DNA of 37,251 bases, taken from contig JAHEMV010000003.1 of the NCBI GenBank assembly GCA_024643455.1, positions 1 to 37,251 of the forward strand, written 5' to 3'. The notes beneath the pieces are model-generated. The model was not told the DNA's origin, made no database searches, and saw nothing but the letters and a program-made list of their open reading frames with translations. The DNA is from Cytophagales bacterium. GTDB taxonomy: Bacteria; Bacteroidota; Bacteroidia; Cytophagales; Cyclobacteriaceae. Positions 6,677 through 37,151 of the stretch are shown piece after piece (positions within the stretch are counted from its first letter, which is position 1; each line of letters begins with the position of its first letter). The translations under genes were made by a program, and so were the position numbers.

Positions 6677-8050
6677 ATGAAACTACTTCCTATAGCCTTT
6701 TTCTTGATTATAAATTATAATCTTTCAGCCCAGCTATACAGCACCGGGCTGATTTTTAATGATGGTAATTATAAAAAAGCCCCAATTCGAGCAAATCTTT
6801 ATGGTGATGAATTTAAAGATTTACCATCATCCTACTCATTAAAAGAGTATTGCCCCAGACCTGGGAATCAACTTCAGTTGAACACTTCTCCTTCCTGGGC
6901 TACAACCTGGAGTGCCGCATCCATCCTGATGGCACAAAAAAATGAATGGACAAATACACAATTGATTACCCAAAATACACTTTCACCTGCATATAATTAT
7001 TATCATATAAGAAAGCCAGAAGATGAAAGTTGCGAAGCAGGAGCTGATCTATTCGAAGCCTTACAGTTTTTAAAAAACAGCAAAGCAAGAACCTATGAAG
7101 ATTTTTTAGAATTTTGTCCTAGGGGAATCCCCGAAGATATAATTCCAAAAAAAAATGAAGGCCAAATAAGTGATTTTGTCAAATTATTTGATCAAAACCA
7201 TCCTGATGACTTTAAATTAAATGCGGTTAAAAAATCAATTTCTGAAAATTATCCAGTAGTTATAGGCATGTACTGCCCTCCTTCTTTTTTCAATGCAAAA
7301 AATTTCTGGCAACCCGGCGAAATGTTTAGCACTGATTATCCTGGGCATGCTTTATGTGTTATTGGATATGATGACAATAAATTTGGTGGTTCTTTTGAAC
7401 TAATAAATAGCTGGGGCAGCAGATGGGGTAATGATGGATTCATTTGGATTCGATATACAGATTTTGTGTATTTCACAAAATACGCTTATGAGGTTTTTAA
7501 TATTAGAAAGGACCAAAATGACAACTATACGTTTTCTGGATTTATAAACTTAAAGCTAAATACGGATAATGAAATAAAAATTGAAAAGAAAGAAAATGGA
7601 ATATTTCAAACACTGTCTCCATTAAAAACAGGCACCTTTTTTCGTCTCTATCTTGAAAATACAGATCCTGCATTTGTCTATGTATTTGGAATGGACGCGT
7701 CGAATATATTCTTTAGAATTTTTCCCAATCTGGACTCTCTTAGCCCTGCTCTGTTATACCCAACAGAAAGGAGTGTAATACCGGGAGAAGATAATTATAT
7801 TAAAATAATTGACGAGCCGGGAGAAGAAAAATTATACATCCTGTATAGCAAGGAGCCTATTGATTTTGGCCAACTTATTAGTAACCTTAGTAAATTTCCA
7901 GGTGATGTATCAGAAAATCTTGATGCTTTGTTGATGGGTAAACTAATTGACTCAAAAGAAATTACGTGGAATAATAATGGCATTGGATTTAGTGCTGAAA
8001 GCAAAGTAAAGACTGCTATTTTAATTCAAATTCAGATCGATCATATATAA
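6677..8050 (+). CDS. Exported papain-fold (peptidase C1) protein, predicted catalytically dead, with DUF4384-like C-terminal domain
   Basis: C1 motifs GHALCVIGYDDN and LINSWGSRWGNDGFIWIRY; expected Gln/CGSCWAF region reads SPSWATTWSAAS (no catalytic Cys). C-terminal KTGTFFRLYLENTDPAFVYVFGMD...FRIFPN...VIPGEDNYIKIIDEPGEEKLYILYSKEPID resembles DUF4384. Confidence 0.75.
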   Translation: MKLLPIAFFLIINYNLSAQLYSTGLIFNDGNYKKAPIRANLYGDEFKDLPSSYSLKEYCPRPGNQLQLNTSPSWATTWSAASILMAQKNEWTNTQLITQNTLSPAYNYYHIRKPEDESCEAGADLFEALQFLKNSKARTYEDFLEFCPRGIPEDIIPKKNEGQISDFVKLFDQNHPDDFKLNAVKKSISENYPVVIGMYCPPSFFNAKNFWQPGEMFSTDYPGHALCVIGYDDNKFGGSFELINSWGSRWGNDGFIWIRYTDFVYFTKYAYEVFNIRKDQNDNYTFSGFINLKLNTDNEIKIEKKENGIFQTLSPLKTGTFFRLYLENTDPAFVYVFGMDASNIFFRIFPNLDSLSPALLYPTERSVIPGEDNYIKIIDEPGEEKLYILYSKEPIDFGQLISNLSKFPGDVSENLDALLMGKLIDSKEITWNNNGIGFSAESKVKTAILIQIQIDHI

Positions 8051-31260: not shown

Positions 31261-31734
31261 ATGAAGTACTTATTTATCCTGGTAATACTGGTTTTAGGAA
31301 AAAGTGACACCCCGCCCTTAAACAAGAAGGTAGTAAAATACATTGATACGGTCATTGGTAAAAAAGTCGACCGTGGAGAATGCTGGGATCTCGCCGCTGC
31401 TGCGCTCGATTATGCAGGGGCATACCTGGATCGAAGCAATCAAAAAAACATTTATGTTTTTGGTAAAGTAATTAATCCAAAGCAAGAAGAAATTTTCGAG
31501 GGTGATATTATCCAGTTGGAAAATGTAAAAATAGAATACACAAAAGATGACGGGATTTATACAGAGTCCATGCCTCACCATACCGCAATTGTTTATGAGG
31601 TATTGGATAAGAGTCATTTTAAAATTGCGCATCAAAACACCAGCTTTAGTGGAAAAAAGGTTGGTATCAGTGAATTTAGATTGAGTGATTTAAAGAAGGG
31701 AAAAATAATATTTTACAGACCTTACAAAAAGTAA
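31261..31734 (+). CDS. Small exported protein, possible CHAP/BBC1-AIM3-like cysteine-proteinase fold
   Basis: Signal-like N-term; GKKVDRGECWDLAAAALDYAGA ... GDIIQLENV ... HHTAIVYEVLDKSHFKIAHQN: Cys near N-term and conserved-type His after GD(I/V)(I/V)Q. Confidence 0.5.
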   Translation: MKYLFILVILVLGKSDTPPLNKKVVKYIDTVIGKKVDRGECWDLAAAALDYAGAYLDRSNQKNIYVFGKVINPKQEEIFEGDIIQLENVKIEYTKDDGIYTESMPHHTAIVYEVLDKSHFKIAHQNTSFSGKKVGISEFRLSDLKKGKIIFYRPYKK

Positions 31735-31844
31735 AATCCCTTTTGAAGATTCCTTTTGAATTGGAAATAAATCAACTTGAATTACCATTAATATTAAATA
31801 ATGGGAAATTCATGATTTTTGACGAAAATATTTAAGCTCAATTC

Positions 31845-31875
31845 TTTGAAATTAAAATATAATCCTCGACTTTTG
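31845..31875 (+). promoter_or_regulatory. Putative ilv promoter TTTG-N19-GACTTTTG
   Basis: TTTG 31845-31848 and GACTTTTG 31868-31875 (one mismatch to TAnnTTTG), 19-nt spacer. Confidence 0.35.
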
Positions 31876-31925
31876 TTTCCTCGTAAATAAACAGAAGAAA
31901 ATTTTAAGAAATAGATATAATTTAA

Positions 31926-31991
31926 ATGAAAGTATTGTCATCTATAGTAGTTCTAGTCCTTTCTGTCGTGGTCCTCATTAACGGTGCATGA
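31926..31991 (+). CDS. ilv operon leader peptide MKVLSSIVVLVLSVVVLINGA (21 aa)
   Basis: ATG 31926 to TGA 31989-31991; 13 of 21 residues are V/L/I; sits directly upstream of antiterminator/terminator pairings and ilvD. Confidence 0.85.
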   Translation: MKVLSSIVVLVLSVVVLINGA

Positions 31992-32056
31992 AGAGAAAGG
32001 TATGCTATAGACATAAAACACTAAAACCTTTCTCCAAAACAGAAAGGTTTTTTTTT
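31958..32056 (+). promoter_or_regulatory. Transcription attenuator (1:2, 2:3 antiterminator, 3:4 terminator) upstream of ilvD
   Basis: Region 1 CCTTTCT 31958-31964; region 2 GAGAAAGGT 31993-32001; region 3 ACCTTTCTC 32026-32034; region 4 AGAAAGGTTTT 32041-32051. 1:2 is 7 bp, 2:3 is 9 bp, 3:4 is 11 bp, all perfect and mutually exclusive. Confidence 0.85.
32023..32056 (+). terminator. Intrinsic terminator of the ilv attenuator
   Basis: AAAACCTTTCT (32023-32033) / AGAAAGGTTTT (32041-32051), 7-nt loop CCAAAAC, U-tract to 32056. Confidence 0.88.
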
Positions 32057-32063
32057 AATCAAT

Positions 32064-33737
32064 ATGGGAAAAAATATAAACAAATTTAGCAGTAAAATCA
32101 CCCAGGACGAAAGCCTTCCTGCAGCCCAGGCAATGCTTTATGCTATTGGCATGAAGGATGCCGATATGAAAAAAGCACAGGTTGGAATAGTTAGCACCGG
32201 ATACCAGGGGAATCCATGTAATATGCACTTAAACGGTCTGGCTGACCAAATCAAAAAGGGTGTAGATCAAAATGGGCTAATGGGACTAATCTTTCATACT
32301 ATTGGTGTGAGTGACGGGATTACCAACGGAACCGAGGGAATGAAATATTCCCTGCCCTCAAGAGAGCTTATTGCGGATTCGATTGAAACGGTTGTCAGTG
32401 CTCAGTTTTATGATGCAGTCGTTTCTGTTGTTGGTTGTGATAAAAATATGCCAGGTGCTATGATTGCAATGGGTCGATTAAACAGGCCGGGGATATTGGT
32501 ATATGGCGGAACAGTAAAAAAAGGTTCATGGAAAGGAAAAGATTTAAATATTGTTTCTGCCTTTGAAGCCTATGGAGAAAAACTTGCCGGAAAAATAAGC
32601 GATGAAGATTACAAGGGTATAATTAAAAATTCAATCCCCGGAGCTGGCGCTTGTGGGGGCATGTATACAGCAAATACCATGGCTGCGGCAATAGAATGCC
32701 TGGGAATGAGCCTCCCCTATTCTTCCTCCAATCCTGCCATCAGTGATGAAAAAGGGCATGAGTGTTTTGACATTGGCAAAGCAATTAAGCACCTATTGGA
32801 AATTGATCTGAAGCCAAGAGACATTATGACCAAGGCCTCATTTGAAAATGCCATTTCTTTGATAATGGCATTAGGTGGTTCTACTAATGCTGTTTTGCAT
32901 TTGTTGGCTATGGCAAAATCAGTTGAAATAGAGCTTAGTATAGATGATTTTCAGCGAATAAGTGATAAAACTCCATTTATTGCGGACTTGAAGCCAAGTG
33001 GAGAATATCTGATTGAAGATCTACATCATATAGGCGGAGTTCCAGGAGTTATGAAAATGTTACTTAAAGAAGGATACTTCGACGGTAATTGCATGACAGT
33101 TACCGGTAAAACACTGGGCGAAAATCTTGAGGTTATTGAGGATCTTAAAAAAGGGCAAAAAATCATCCGACCTTTTAGCGATCCGATTAAACCAGTTGGT
33201 CATATTCAAATTCTCTATGGTAATTTGGCAGAGGAAGGAGCTGTTGCAAAAATAACTGGAAAAGAAGGAGAAGTTTTTAAAGGTCCAGCTATTGTTTTTG
33301 AAGATGAATTTGAGGCTGTTAAAGGAATTGGCACATCGGTTAAAAAAGGTGATGTAATTGTTATCCGATATTCAGGGCCAAAAGGCGCTCCCGGGATGCC
33401 AGAAATGCTGAAACCTACAGGTGCTGTTATGGGTGCAGGGCTTGGAAAAGATGTCGCATTAATTACTGACGGAAGGTTTTCTGGCGGATCTCACGGTTTT
33501 GTGGTTGGCCATATCACACCTGAAGCCTCTGAGGGTGGAATGATCGGATTATTAAAAGATGGCGATATCATCACAATCGATGCCATTAATAACCGTTTGG
33601 ATGTATCCCTTTCTGAGGAAGAAATAAAGTTAAGAAAAAGTAAATGGAAGAAGCCCGCTTACAAGGCTTCCACTGGAATATTAAAAAAGTTTATTGACAC
33701 CGTATCTACAGCCTCAACAGGTTGTGTTACCACCTAA
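32064..33737 (+). CDS. ilvD: Dihydroxy-acid dehydratase
   Basis: [88 protein letters not shown]. Confidence 0.97.
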
Positions 33738-33748
33738 AATTACATATT

Positions 33749-35488
33749 ATGGGACAGATGGAAACGTTAAAAAAATCATCGGCCGGAATTGCTAAAAAGA
33801 AAATGAGAATAACAGGCTCAGAAGCTGTAATTCTTTCCTTACTCGAAGAGGGAGTAAGCACGATTTTTGGTTATCCCGGCGGTGCAATTATGCCAATTTA
33901 TGATGCATTATATGGCTACAAAGATAAATTAAACCATCTTTTGGTCAGGCATGAACAAGGAGCTGCACATGCAGCTCAGGGTTATGCTCGAGTTACTGGA
34001 CAAGTTGGCGTATGCTTTGCTACAAGTGGACCAGGTGCAACAAACCTGATAACTGGAATTGCCGACGCACAAATTGATTCAACTCCTATTGTTTGCATAA
34101 CCGGACAGGTTCCGGCACACTTATTAGGCTCAGATGCATTTCAGGAGTCAGATGTGTTAGGAATATCTATGCCAGTCACCAAGTGGAATTTTCAAATAAC
34201 AAAACCAGAAGAGATTCCTGCAGCAATTGCACGTGCTTTTTATATTGCCAGGACTGGGCGTCCCGGGCCTGTATTACTGGACATTACAAAAAATGCACAA
34301 TTTGGCGAATTGGATTTTGAATATATTCCTTGTGAAAAAATCAGAAGTTATCATCCATACCCTGTAATAAATGACCAGGACATACTGGATGCTGCAAAAA
34401 TTATAAATAGTGCTAAAAAGCCATACATCCTCTCAGGACACGGTGTATTAATTTCAGGTGCAGAAAAGAAAGTCCTTGAGCTTTCAGAAAAAGCCAATAT
34501 CCCAGTAGCCTCTACCCTACTTGGATTGTCATCATTTCCTCCGGATCATCCGAATTATGTTGGTTATTTAGGCATGCACGGCAACTATGGCCCCAATGTG
34601 CTGACCAACGAATGTGATGTGTTAATTGCAATTGGGATGCGATTCGATGACAGAGTTACAGGTGATGTAAAAAGATATGCAAGACAAGCTAAAGTAATTC
34701 ATATAGAAATTGATCCTGCTGAGATTGATAAAATTATAAAAACAGAAGTAGGAATTAATGCTGATGCTACACAGGCTTTAGATCGGCTTATTCCCCATAT
34801 CAAAAAGTCGAACCATAACGAATGGATAAATGAATTCCGGAAATTGGATAAAATCGAGTATGAAAAAGTAATTAAACACGATATTTATCCTACCGGAAAT
34901 GACATCAAAATGGGTGAAGTCATTCGATTGATTTCAGAAATATCCAAGGGTGAGGCCATTGTCGTAACAGATGTTGGTCAACACCAAATGATTGCCTCCA
35001 GATATTATAAATTCAGAAAACCGAATCATATCGTAACGTCAGGAGGCTTGGGAACAATGGGATTTGCATTACCTGCAGCTCTGGGTGCCCAACTTGGAAA
35101 GAAAGACGAAAAAGTAATTTCGATTTCAGGTGATGGTGGCTTTCAAATGACAATTCAGGAATTAGGTACTATTTTCCAGTACAACATCCCGGTTAAAATT
35201 GTAGTTTTGAATAATAACTTCCTTGGAATGGTTAGACAATGGCAACAGTTGTTCTTCGAAAAAAGGTACTCCTTTACAGAAATGACTAATCCGGATTTTG
35301 TAAAAATTGCGGATGGTTATGGGATCAAATGTAATCGAGTAAGTCAGCGTGAAGATTTAGAAAATGCTTTGCAAACCATGTACGACCACGACGGCCCCTA
35401 TTTCCTTGAAGTAAAAGTTGAGATGGAAGAGAATGTATTTCCAATGGTACCATCAGGAGATTCTGTTTCTAATATTCGATTGGAATAA
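33749..35488 (+). CDS. ilvB: Acetolactate synthase large subunit
   Basis: [67 protein letters not shown]; ThDP motif [35 protein letters not shown] at 33749 preferred. Confidence 0.97.
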
Positions 35489-35503: not shown

Positions 35504-36103
35504 ATGACAGATATATATCAAGATTCAACAGATCAACAGGTCGAAAAGCAGTTTACCGTTTCGATCCTGACTGAAGATAAACCTGGACTACTTAATACAG
35601 TAACAATTGTATTTACCAGAAGAAAACTTAACATCGACATGATCAATGTTTCTGCCTCTGAAGTGGAAGGAGTAAGTAGATATACTATTGTCCTTACTAC
35701 CACGAAAGACCAGGTAGAAAAAGTAGTTAAACAAATACGTAAACATGTTGATGTTCTCGGAGCTTTTGTTTATGAAGAAGATGCTATCCATTATCAGGAA
35801 ATCGCTTTATACAAAGTGCCTACAGAAATTTTTATGGGAGGCATAGAAGTAGAGGCAATCGTAAGAGCAAACAACGCTCGAATTCTTGTAATAGAAAGAG
35901 ATTATACGGTAATCGAAAAGACGGGCCACAAGGAAGAAACGACAGCACTTTTTAAAACATTAAAAAAGTATGGAGTGCTTGAGTTCGTAAGATCAGGAAG
36001 AATTTCGGTTTCAAAATCAAAAAGAAAGACTGAAACCTTCCTTGAAGAACTAGAAAAATCAACAACACATAGTTTAAATAATAATAACGGAACAATAAAT
36101 TAA
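35504..36103 (+). CDS. ilvN: Acetolactate synthase small subunit
   Basis: FTVSILTEDKPGLLNTVTIVFTRRKLNIDMINVSASEVEGVSRYTIVL (ACT domain); follows ilvB. Confidence 0.93.
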   Translation: MTDIYQDSTDQQVEKQFTVSILTEDKPGLLNTVTIVFTRRKLNIDMINVSASEVEGVSRYTIVLTTTKDQVEKVVKQIRKHVDVLGAFVYEEDAIHYQEIALYKVPTEIFMGGIEVEAIVRANNARILVIERDYTVIEKTGHKEETTALFKTLKKYGVLEFVRSGRISVSKSKRKTETFLEELEKSTTHSLNNNNGTIN

Positions 36104-36104
36104 A

Positions 36105-37151
36105 ATGGCAAAAATCAATTTTGGTGGCGTCGAAGAAAACGTAGTGACGCGAGAAGAATTCCCTTTGGCAAAAGCAAGGGAAGTAATGAAAAACGAAACT
36201 ATAGCAATTATTGGTTATGGCGTCCAGGGACCTGGTCAGGCTTTAAACCTCAGAGACAATGGCTTTAATGTAATTGTTGGTCAAAGAAAACCCTCAAAAT
36301 CCTATGACAAAGCATTGAAAGACGGATGGGTTGAAGGCAAAACCTTGTTTACCATTGAAGAAGCGCTTCAAAAAGGAACAATTATATTCTATCTTCTTTC
36401 AGATGCTGCCCAAATTGCAATGTGGCCGACCGTTAAAAAACACTTAACTGAAGGAAAATCACTTTATTTTTCTCATGGATTTGGTATTACTTATAAAGAA
36501 AGAACAGGTATAATTCCTCCATCAAATGTAGATGTAATGCTCGTGGCACCTAAAGGATCAGGAACAAGCTTAAGGAGGTTGTTTGTTGAAGGAAAAGGAT
36601 TGAATTCAAGTTTTGCTATCCATCAGGATTACACAGGTAAGGCAAAAGATAAAGTGGTTGCTTTAGGTATTGGTGTTGGTTCAGGCTATCTTTTTGAAAC
36701 TACTTTCAAAAAGGAAGTATATAGTGATCTGACCGGTGAAAGAGGAACGCTAATGGGTGCAATTCAAGGCATTTTTGCAGCACAATATGACCTGTTAAGA
36801 AGCAAAGGGCACTCCCCTTCAGAGGCATTTAATGAAACAGTAGAAGAAGCTACTCAATCGCTTTATCCTTTAGTTGCAGAAAATGGCATGGATTGGATGT
36901 ACGCCAATTGTTCTACAACCGCACAGCGTGGAGCTTTGGATTGGTGGAAGAAATTTAGGGACGCTACAGCACCTGTTTTCAAAGAACTTTATGAAAGTGT
37001 GGCTGCTGGTCAAGAGGCACAAAAATCCATTGATTCAAATAGTCAGGATGACTACAGAGTTAAATTGGAAGCTGAATTGAAAGAGATGAGGGAGTCAGAA
37101 ATGTGGATTACCGGTGCCGCGGTCCGGAAATTAAGACCAGAAAACAATTAA
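36105..37151 (+). CDS. ilvC: Ketol-acid reductoisomerase
   Basis: IAIIGYGVQGPGQALNLRDNGFNVIVGQRK; DVMLVAPKGSGTSLRRLFVEGKG; DLTGERGTLMGAIQGIFAAQYDLL; YANCSTTAQRGALDW. Confidence 0.96.
   Translation: MAKINFGGVEENVVTREEFPLAKAREVMKNETIAIIGYGVQGPGQALNLRDNGFNVIVGQRKPSKSYDKALKDGWVEGKTLFTIEEALQKGTIIFYLLSDAAQIAMWPTVKKHLTEGKSLYFSHGFGITYKERTGIIPPSNVDVMLVAPKGSGTSLRRLFVEGKGLNSSFAIHQDYTGKAKDKVVALGIGVGSGYLFETTFKKEVYSDLTGERGTLMGAIQGIFAAQYDLLRSKGHSPSEAFNETVEEATQSLYPLVAENGMDWMYANCSTTAQRGALDWWKKFRDATAPVFKELYESVAAGQEAQKSIDSNSQDDYRVKLEAELKEMRESEMWITGAAVRKLRPENN

Follow-up and report, generated by a model that had tools for sequence, protein, structure and literature searches.

What governs transcription into the branched-chain amino acid genes at the end of this contig? 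In the 37,251 nt stretch of DNA that was analysed (the window), which comes from a 719-contig genome of the order Cytophagales, ilvD, ilvB, ilvN and ilvC share one direction, and the gap preceding ilvD contains a short leader ORF. Another 100 nt of contig follow ilvC; in the sister genomes G001 and G002 leuA comes after ilvC. The operon comprises:

32064-33737, + strand: ilvD, dihydroxy-acid dehydratase (TIGR00110, 719 bits, cut-off 618)
33749-35488, + strand: ilvB, acetolactate synthase large subunit (TIGR00118, 749 bits)
35504-36103, + strand: ilvN, acetolactate synthase small subunit (TIGR00119, 98.7 bits, cut-off 56.9)
36105-37151, + strand: ilvC, ketol-acid reductoisomerase (TIGR00465, 319 bits)

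Our data from sequence analysis and RNA folding models indicate that positions 31926-32056 are very probably a classical ribosome-mediated transcription attenuator of the ilvDBNC(-leu) operon.

Leader ORF and pairing segments upstream of ilvD

The first-pass annotation had placed a leader ORF, four segments and a U-tract terminator in this gap, and direct reading of the sequence found all of them at the positions given there. The elements of the region are:

31845-31875, + strand: promoter-like site TTTG-N19-GACTTTTG of the Bacteroidota type (-33 TTTG / -7 TAnnTTTG), with one departure
31926-31991, + strand: leader ORF of 21 codons, MKVLSSIVVLVLSVVVLINGA*, from ATG (31926-31928) to TGA (31989-31991)
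31941-31949, + strand: distal part of segment 1, TCTATAGTA, in codons 6-8; predicted to pair with 32003-32011 (MFE fold, duplex prediction)
31944-31979, + strand: codons 7-18 (I V V L V L S V V V L I), where a stalled ribosome is predicted to lead to the antiterminator (ribosome-masking fold)
31958-31964, + strand: proximal part of segment 1, CCTTTCT, in codons 11-13; pairs with 31994-32000
31993-32001, + strand: segment 2, GAGAAAGGT, which adjoins the stop codon; 5' arm of the putative antiterminator
32003-32011, + strand: distal part of segment 2, TGCTATAGA; 3' arm of the outer 1:2 helix
32023-32034, + strand: segment 3, AAAACCTTTCTC; alternative partner of segment 2 in the antiterminator and of segment 4 in the terminator
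32041-32056, + strand: segment 4, AGAAAGGTTTT (32041-32051), and U-tract (T-run 32048-32056); 3' arm of the predicted intrinsic terminator

The leader peptide contains 7 Val, 4 Leu and 2 Ile (13 of 21 codons), and codons 7-18 consist of 6 Val, 3 Leu and 2 Ile codons plus a single other one (11 of 12 V/L/I). Sensing of all three branched-chain tRNAs, as proposed earlier, is plausible, judging by this codon content. The ORF at 31926-31991 has no Shine-Dalgarno-like sequence, and its context is A-rich. Shine-Dalgarno initiation is mostly unused in Bacteroidota.

The core segments form helices of 7 bp (1:2), 9 bp (2:3) and 11 bp (3:4). The core of segment 3, ACCTTTCTC, spans 32026-32034, and the full terminator arm, AAAACCTTTCT, spans 32023-32033. 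Pairing of CCTTTCT with segment 2 had been noted before and was recovered by folding and duplex prediction, but the 1:2 helix is longer than described: an outer helix between TCTATAGTA and TGCTATAGA makes it a two-part hairpin of about twice the length. A scan of positions 31500-32400 of the + strand found just one terminator-like site, the 3:4 hairpin. With its U-tract, it is a predicted intrinsic terminator 5' of the first structural gene, ilvD, and lies within the 72 nt between the leader stop and that gene.

The promoter-like site implies a putative transcription start near 31880-31885. Its pattern was found 4 times across the window, with 4.0 expected by chance, so that its weight comes solely from conservation: TTTG-N19/20-nAnnTTTG occurs at the matching position in 8 relatives.

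Conservation in relatives and covariation of the helices

Relatives were surveyed with a detector for an ATG ORF of 8-40 codons, at least 6 and at least 38% of them V/I/L, that has a terminator no further than 110 nt away. Of 138 distinct regions upstream of ilvD, 46 had such a leader with terminator, compared to 0 of 1380 dinucleotide shuffles and 1 of 138 reverse strands. Given the numbers for real upstream regions and shuffles, the combination is not a product of chance. In the window's genus, every member with a complete ilvD upstream region has the leader (e.g., MKILSSIVLLVLSVVVLIYDA and MKTLISISLLLLTVVVVNGA). Cultured carriers include Runella aurantiaca (L146) and Neolewinella agarilytica (L143). 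The 43 distinct leaders analysed belong to Cytophagales, Saprospirales, Chitinophagales and Balneolaceae; they were picked by V/I/L content, so their overall composition is partly built in, while the positional and pairing tests are exempt from this. The leader stop lies about 65-240 nt from ilvD in relatives, again with a U-tract terminator in between. Pairwise differences among five leaders of the same genus amounted to 33, 18 and 10 at codon positions 3, 1 and 2, respectively, in an ORF that is also constrained by base pairing, and the sole length change among these five (L004) is one whole codon. Sequence comparison shows that a predicted V/L/I leader attenuator is widespread in Bacteroidota, where little is on record.

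Pairing was assessed by an alignment-free partner-permutation test, which compares duplex energies of segments within their own sequence and across sequences for the 43 leaders. Own partners reached -13.8 kcal/mol for 2:3 (permuted: -9.0 kcal/mol), -17.2 kcal/mol for 3:4 (permuted: -9.1 kcal/mol) and -16.8 kcal/mol for 1:2 (permuted: -13.0 kcal/mol), and in each case none of 2000 permutations attained the observed mean. The control helices 1:3 and 2:4, which are not called for by the model, gave no signal in these 43 leaders (557 and 386 of 2000 permutations). The permutation test ignores relatedness; as an answer to this we offer the null result for the control helices and thinning of the 43 leaders to 33, which left the outcome unchanged. 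All three helices that had been described as mutually exclusive thus covary across the 43 distinct leaders.

A sequence-only alignment of 18 leaders showed 97.5% paired cells for 3:4 and 16 double-sided changes (0 of 500 shuffles). For 2:3, there were 6 double-sided cells (1 of 500) despite misaligned rows, and one pair of this helix was AU in 10 rows, UA in 3 and GC in 2. In several rows, MAFFT put segment 2 in the wrong place, and the alignment-based count for 2:3 is therefore a lower bound; for the same reason the alignment-free test carries the weight. The three segments 2/3/4 read AGAAAGG/CCTTTCT/AGAAAGG in the window, GAATGG/CCATTC/GAATGG in L014 and GAGGCGC/GTGCCTC/GAGGCAC in L045; from locus to locus, the three segments change in concert. 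The first-pass annotation had made conservation in close relatives its own refutation check, and the outcome did not refute it: across the 43 leaders the leader itself, its stop position and the three helices are kept with compensatory changes.

Control codons, modelled switch and alternative explanations

To model the switch, we folded the RNA left free by a ribosome at each codon, whose leading edge was set 11-15 nt beyond the codon in the A site. As long as segment 4 had not been made, stalling at codons 7-18 gave P(2:3) values of about 0.7-0.98. With the ribosome at the stop, P(2:3) dropped to about 0; 3:4 formed with the ribosome at codon 21 or at the stop, and an untranslated leader formed 1:2 and 3:4. 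This calculation reproduces the attenuation logic put forward in the first-pass annotation, in which stalling leads to 2:3 and a ribosome at the stop to 3:4. Once segment 4 is present, many stall positions favour 3:4 at equilibrium (P(2:3) 0.07-0.55), so antitermination would hinge on the order in which the segments are made during transcription, just as the classical model has it.

The placement of control codons and stop fits this switch: in the model, segment 2 becomes available upon a stall and is masked by a ribosome that completes the leader. In the 43 leaders, 65% of the antitermination-competent codons were V/I/L, compared to 9% of the later codons, and a modelled ribosome at the stop abolished the antiterminator in 39 of 43. 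Counted back from the stop, positions -5 to -15 are 65-86% V/I/L and the final three codons 12-14%. Where the V/I/L run ends correlates with where the competent stretch does (rho 0.53, n=33); L088, L135 and L143 have a longer non-V/I/L tail, and their competent stretch ends earlier too.

Relative to gene usage, GTC, GTG and CTC are preferred in the window leader and its relatives. GTC makes up 50% of the Val codons in leaders of the genus, compared to 12% in nine window genes, and CTC accounts for 23% of Leu codons in all leaders, compared to 5% in the same nine genes. This preference for rare codons may reflect the choice of sensitive tRNA isoacceptors, and pairing constraints could contribute.

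According to the proposed mechanism, RNA polymerase would start near 31885, and a ribosome would translate the 21-codon leader behind it. When charged Val-, Leu- or Ile-tRNA is low, the ribosome would stall at codons 7-18 and cover segment 1; segment 2 could then pair with segment 3 as soon as this emerges, and the polymerase would proceed into ilvD. With charged tRNAs available, the ribosome would reach the stop and mask segment 2, and formation of 3:4 would result in termination at about 32056. Without translation of the leader, 1:2 and 3:4 should form and transcription should stop as well. The transcription start, leader translation, termination at 32056 and the starvation response are parts of the model that we infer.

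A co-directional ORF (31261-31734) lies upstream, and the 3:4 hairpin makes a good terminator; it might merely serve as the intrinsic terminator of that gene, with the leader ORF and the other helices being coincidence. However, the hairpin is located about 290 nt past the upstream ORF and also past the conserved promoter-like site. In relatives, the leader, 2:3 and 3:4 are kept together next to other or no co-directional upstream genes, and 1:2 and 2:3, which both covary, would be needless for a plain terminator. On the position of the hairpin, the covariation and the gene context in relatives we rejected this explanation, which has only a very slight chance of being correct. The presence of a U-tract terminator in the 72 nt between stop and ilvD (about 65-240 nt in relatives) also speaks against the idea that the short ORF works via translation (re-initiation, unmasking of the ilvD start) or via Rho instead of intrinsic termination. 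Leader genes near structural genes were indeed proposed to help re-initiation (PMC4833913), and codon changes in the Streptomyces ilvB leader were without effect despite an attenuator-like region (PMC1262725). Such a mechanism would not call for a distinct antiterminator arm in covariation with that of the terminator; it is very unlikely to apply here, and a model based on re-initiation only was rejected, since it leaves both this arm and the intervening terminator unexplained.

Terminator/antiterminator pairs are used by metabolite riboswitches and T-boxes as well, and either could act independently of leader translation. In the window no Rfam family, T-box included, matched at gathering score, and the T-box covariance model gave no match at E<=5 either. 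No conserved aptamer-like core was seen outside the switch helices, while conservation extends to the V/I/L codons and to the position of the stop. A riboswitch or T-box was therefore rejected and has next to no probability. Neither gathering nor relaxed Rfam thresholds yielded a usable match for the window leader; the best sub-threshold match was Phe_leader (RF01859; 23.9 bits versus a gathering score of 55), itself a leader-peptide attenuator.

Operon-head position, tandem units and known systems

The leader sits at the head of the operon: of 49 leader-bearing loci, 0 have a gene of the same direction no more than 130 nt upstream of ilvD, compared to 55 of 92 others, where this gene usually encodes an IlvE-like aminotransferase (about 300 residues; the name is based on its sequence). 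Where an ilvE-like gene heads the operon, leader and terminator typically precede that gene, and in 36 units before ilvE the 2:3 pairing beat 500 of 500 permutations. The window itself has a single attenuator unit, while nine loci from three genera (L018, L021, L052-L054, L061-L064) have tandem units before ilvE. Each tandem unit has its own V/I(/T/A)-rich leader, antiterminator and U-tract terminator, and ilvE comes next. In L052 these are MKNIIVIALAIITEVTVTSGRE and AAAGCGTCATTCCCAACAGGATGGCGCTTT, followed by MITTIVTVLAIVIITIIGDT and AAAGCCTTTCTCCAATGAGAAAGGTTTT. L052-L054 and L061-L064 belong to one genus, and L018/L096 are listed together among the tandem ilvE-upstream loci. The second tandem leader in L061, L062 and L064 seemingly starts with GTG or TTG.

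Other leaders were seen in the course of this analysis. In L145 (Marinicella, Gammaproteobacteria), a similar leader, MNFIANLINNVVVVILVIIGPRVW, precedes ilvE beside a Bacteroidota-like ilvD; horizontal transfer of operon and attenuator together is possible. Upstream of leuA in L153 (G009), a Leu-rich leader with TTG start, MNKRYSLSLNLLALLLDML*, is followed by a terminator, GGCCATTC...GAATGGTC, and a T-run; leuA and ilvD are on different contigs in this genome. His-rich leaders (e.g., MLQVGYFLHFHHHHCS and MHPVGSFLHFHNHHHCSK) lie upstream of hisG in five loci of the same genus (L166, L169, L173, L171, L170) and in the window genome (G000:C360, ~7100-7283). They are flanked by AGTGGG...CCCACT, which could pair across the ORF, and no U-tract terminator is present; possibly, this arrangement is of a different, perhaps translational, design. 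In L171, a GC-rich palindromic repeat, TGCCTATCCTGCCTCGCCTGCAGGCGGGCGGACAGGCAGGCA, is inserted in the His leader ORF with the frame kept. The His leaders of other genera (L164 and L172, MITMAVITGLRHAHYHFHHSSSEE and MKSSILHSSVFCAKTTFGNVFHIHHSS) have a small CCTCGT...GAGGAA hairpin at the stop codon.

The ilv attenuator described here resembles the enterobacterial ilv/leu/thr/trp/his attenuators in its placement before a biosynthetic operon, the end-product codons in the leader, the mutually exclusive 1:2, 2:3 and 3:4 helices, the U-tract and the stop beside segment 2. It differs in the lack of a Shine-Dalgarno sequence at the window leader, the Bacteroidota-type promoter, the short 9-bp antiterminator and the AU-richness of the leader. 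We detected no sequence similarity to enterobacterial leaders (none of the Rfam leader families reached its gathering score). We consider it reasonably likely that Bacteroidota and their neighbours own a widespread branched-chain attenuation without recognisable sequence kinship to the enterobacterial one, located at the operon head (ilvD/ilvE) and, in several genera, in tandem before ilvE.

Two general points weigh against the model: Bacteroidota make little use of Shine-Dalgarno initiation, and tight transcription-translation coupling is not known to be proven for them. Conservation of the attenuator implies a coupling of transcription and leader translation close enough for switching of a terminator in these mostly Shine-Dalgarno-less bacteria, and such coupling thereby becomes directly testable. 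The attenuator also offers a way to approach amino-acid regulation from sequence in this large phylum, whose annotation is poor and where ORFs and RNAs of this kind are matched by no Rfam family.

A literature search on Bacteroidota, leader peptide and attenuation found no paper. A comparative study by Vitreschak et al. (2004, FEMS Microbiol. Lett. 234:357) reportedly mentions some attenuators in Bacteroidetes/Chlorobi. In 2010, leader-peptide systems were stated to have been known only in Proteobacteria and Actinobacteria before the Firmicutes example of that study (PMC2965389). Bacteroid-trp RNA (RF01692, PMC2864571) is a cis-regulatory candidate of Bacteroidetes whose name points to tryptophan genes, and it did not match the window at gathering score. 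Actinobacterial ilvB leaders (Corynebacterium, Streptomyces; PMC1262725, PMC11857589) likewise have a short ORF with runs of Ile/Val/Leu and a terminator before ilv, but these ORFs overlap the terminator hairpin, whereas the window ORF ends before the terminator and has the full four-segment logic. Within the same phylum, the transcriptome of Flavobacterium psychrophilum gave "strong clues" that operons for amino acids are preceded by leader-peptide attenuators; the main text of that report contains no ilv leader, segments, covariation or control-codon analysis (PMC9723704).

The proposed mechanism is known classical attenuation, already hinted at for Flavobacterium (PMC9723704). The tandem loci before ilvE, outside the window, share with the tandem attenuators of Salmonella mgtCBR the presence of two short leader ORFs in one leader. 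The mgtCBR system, which was called singular, responds to ATP and proline signals with additive effects (PMC3641672), while both ilvE tandem units are V/I-rich and each has its own U-tract terminator. It is possible that this form is a new variant of tandem leader-peptide attenuators.
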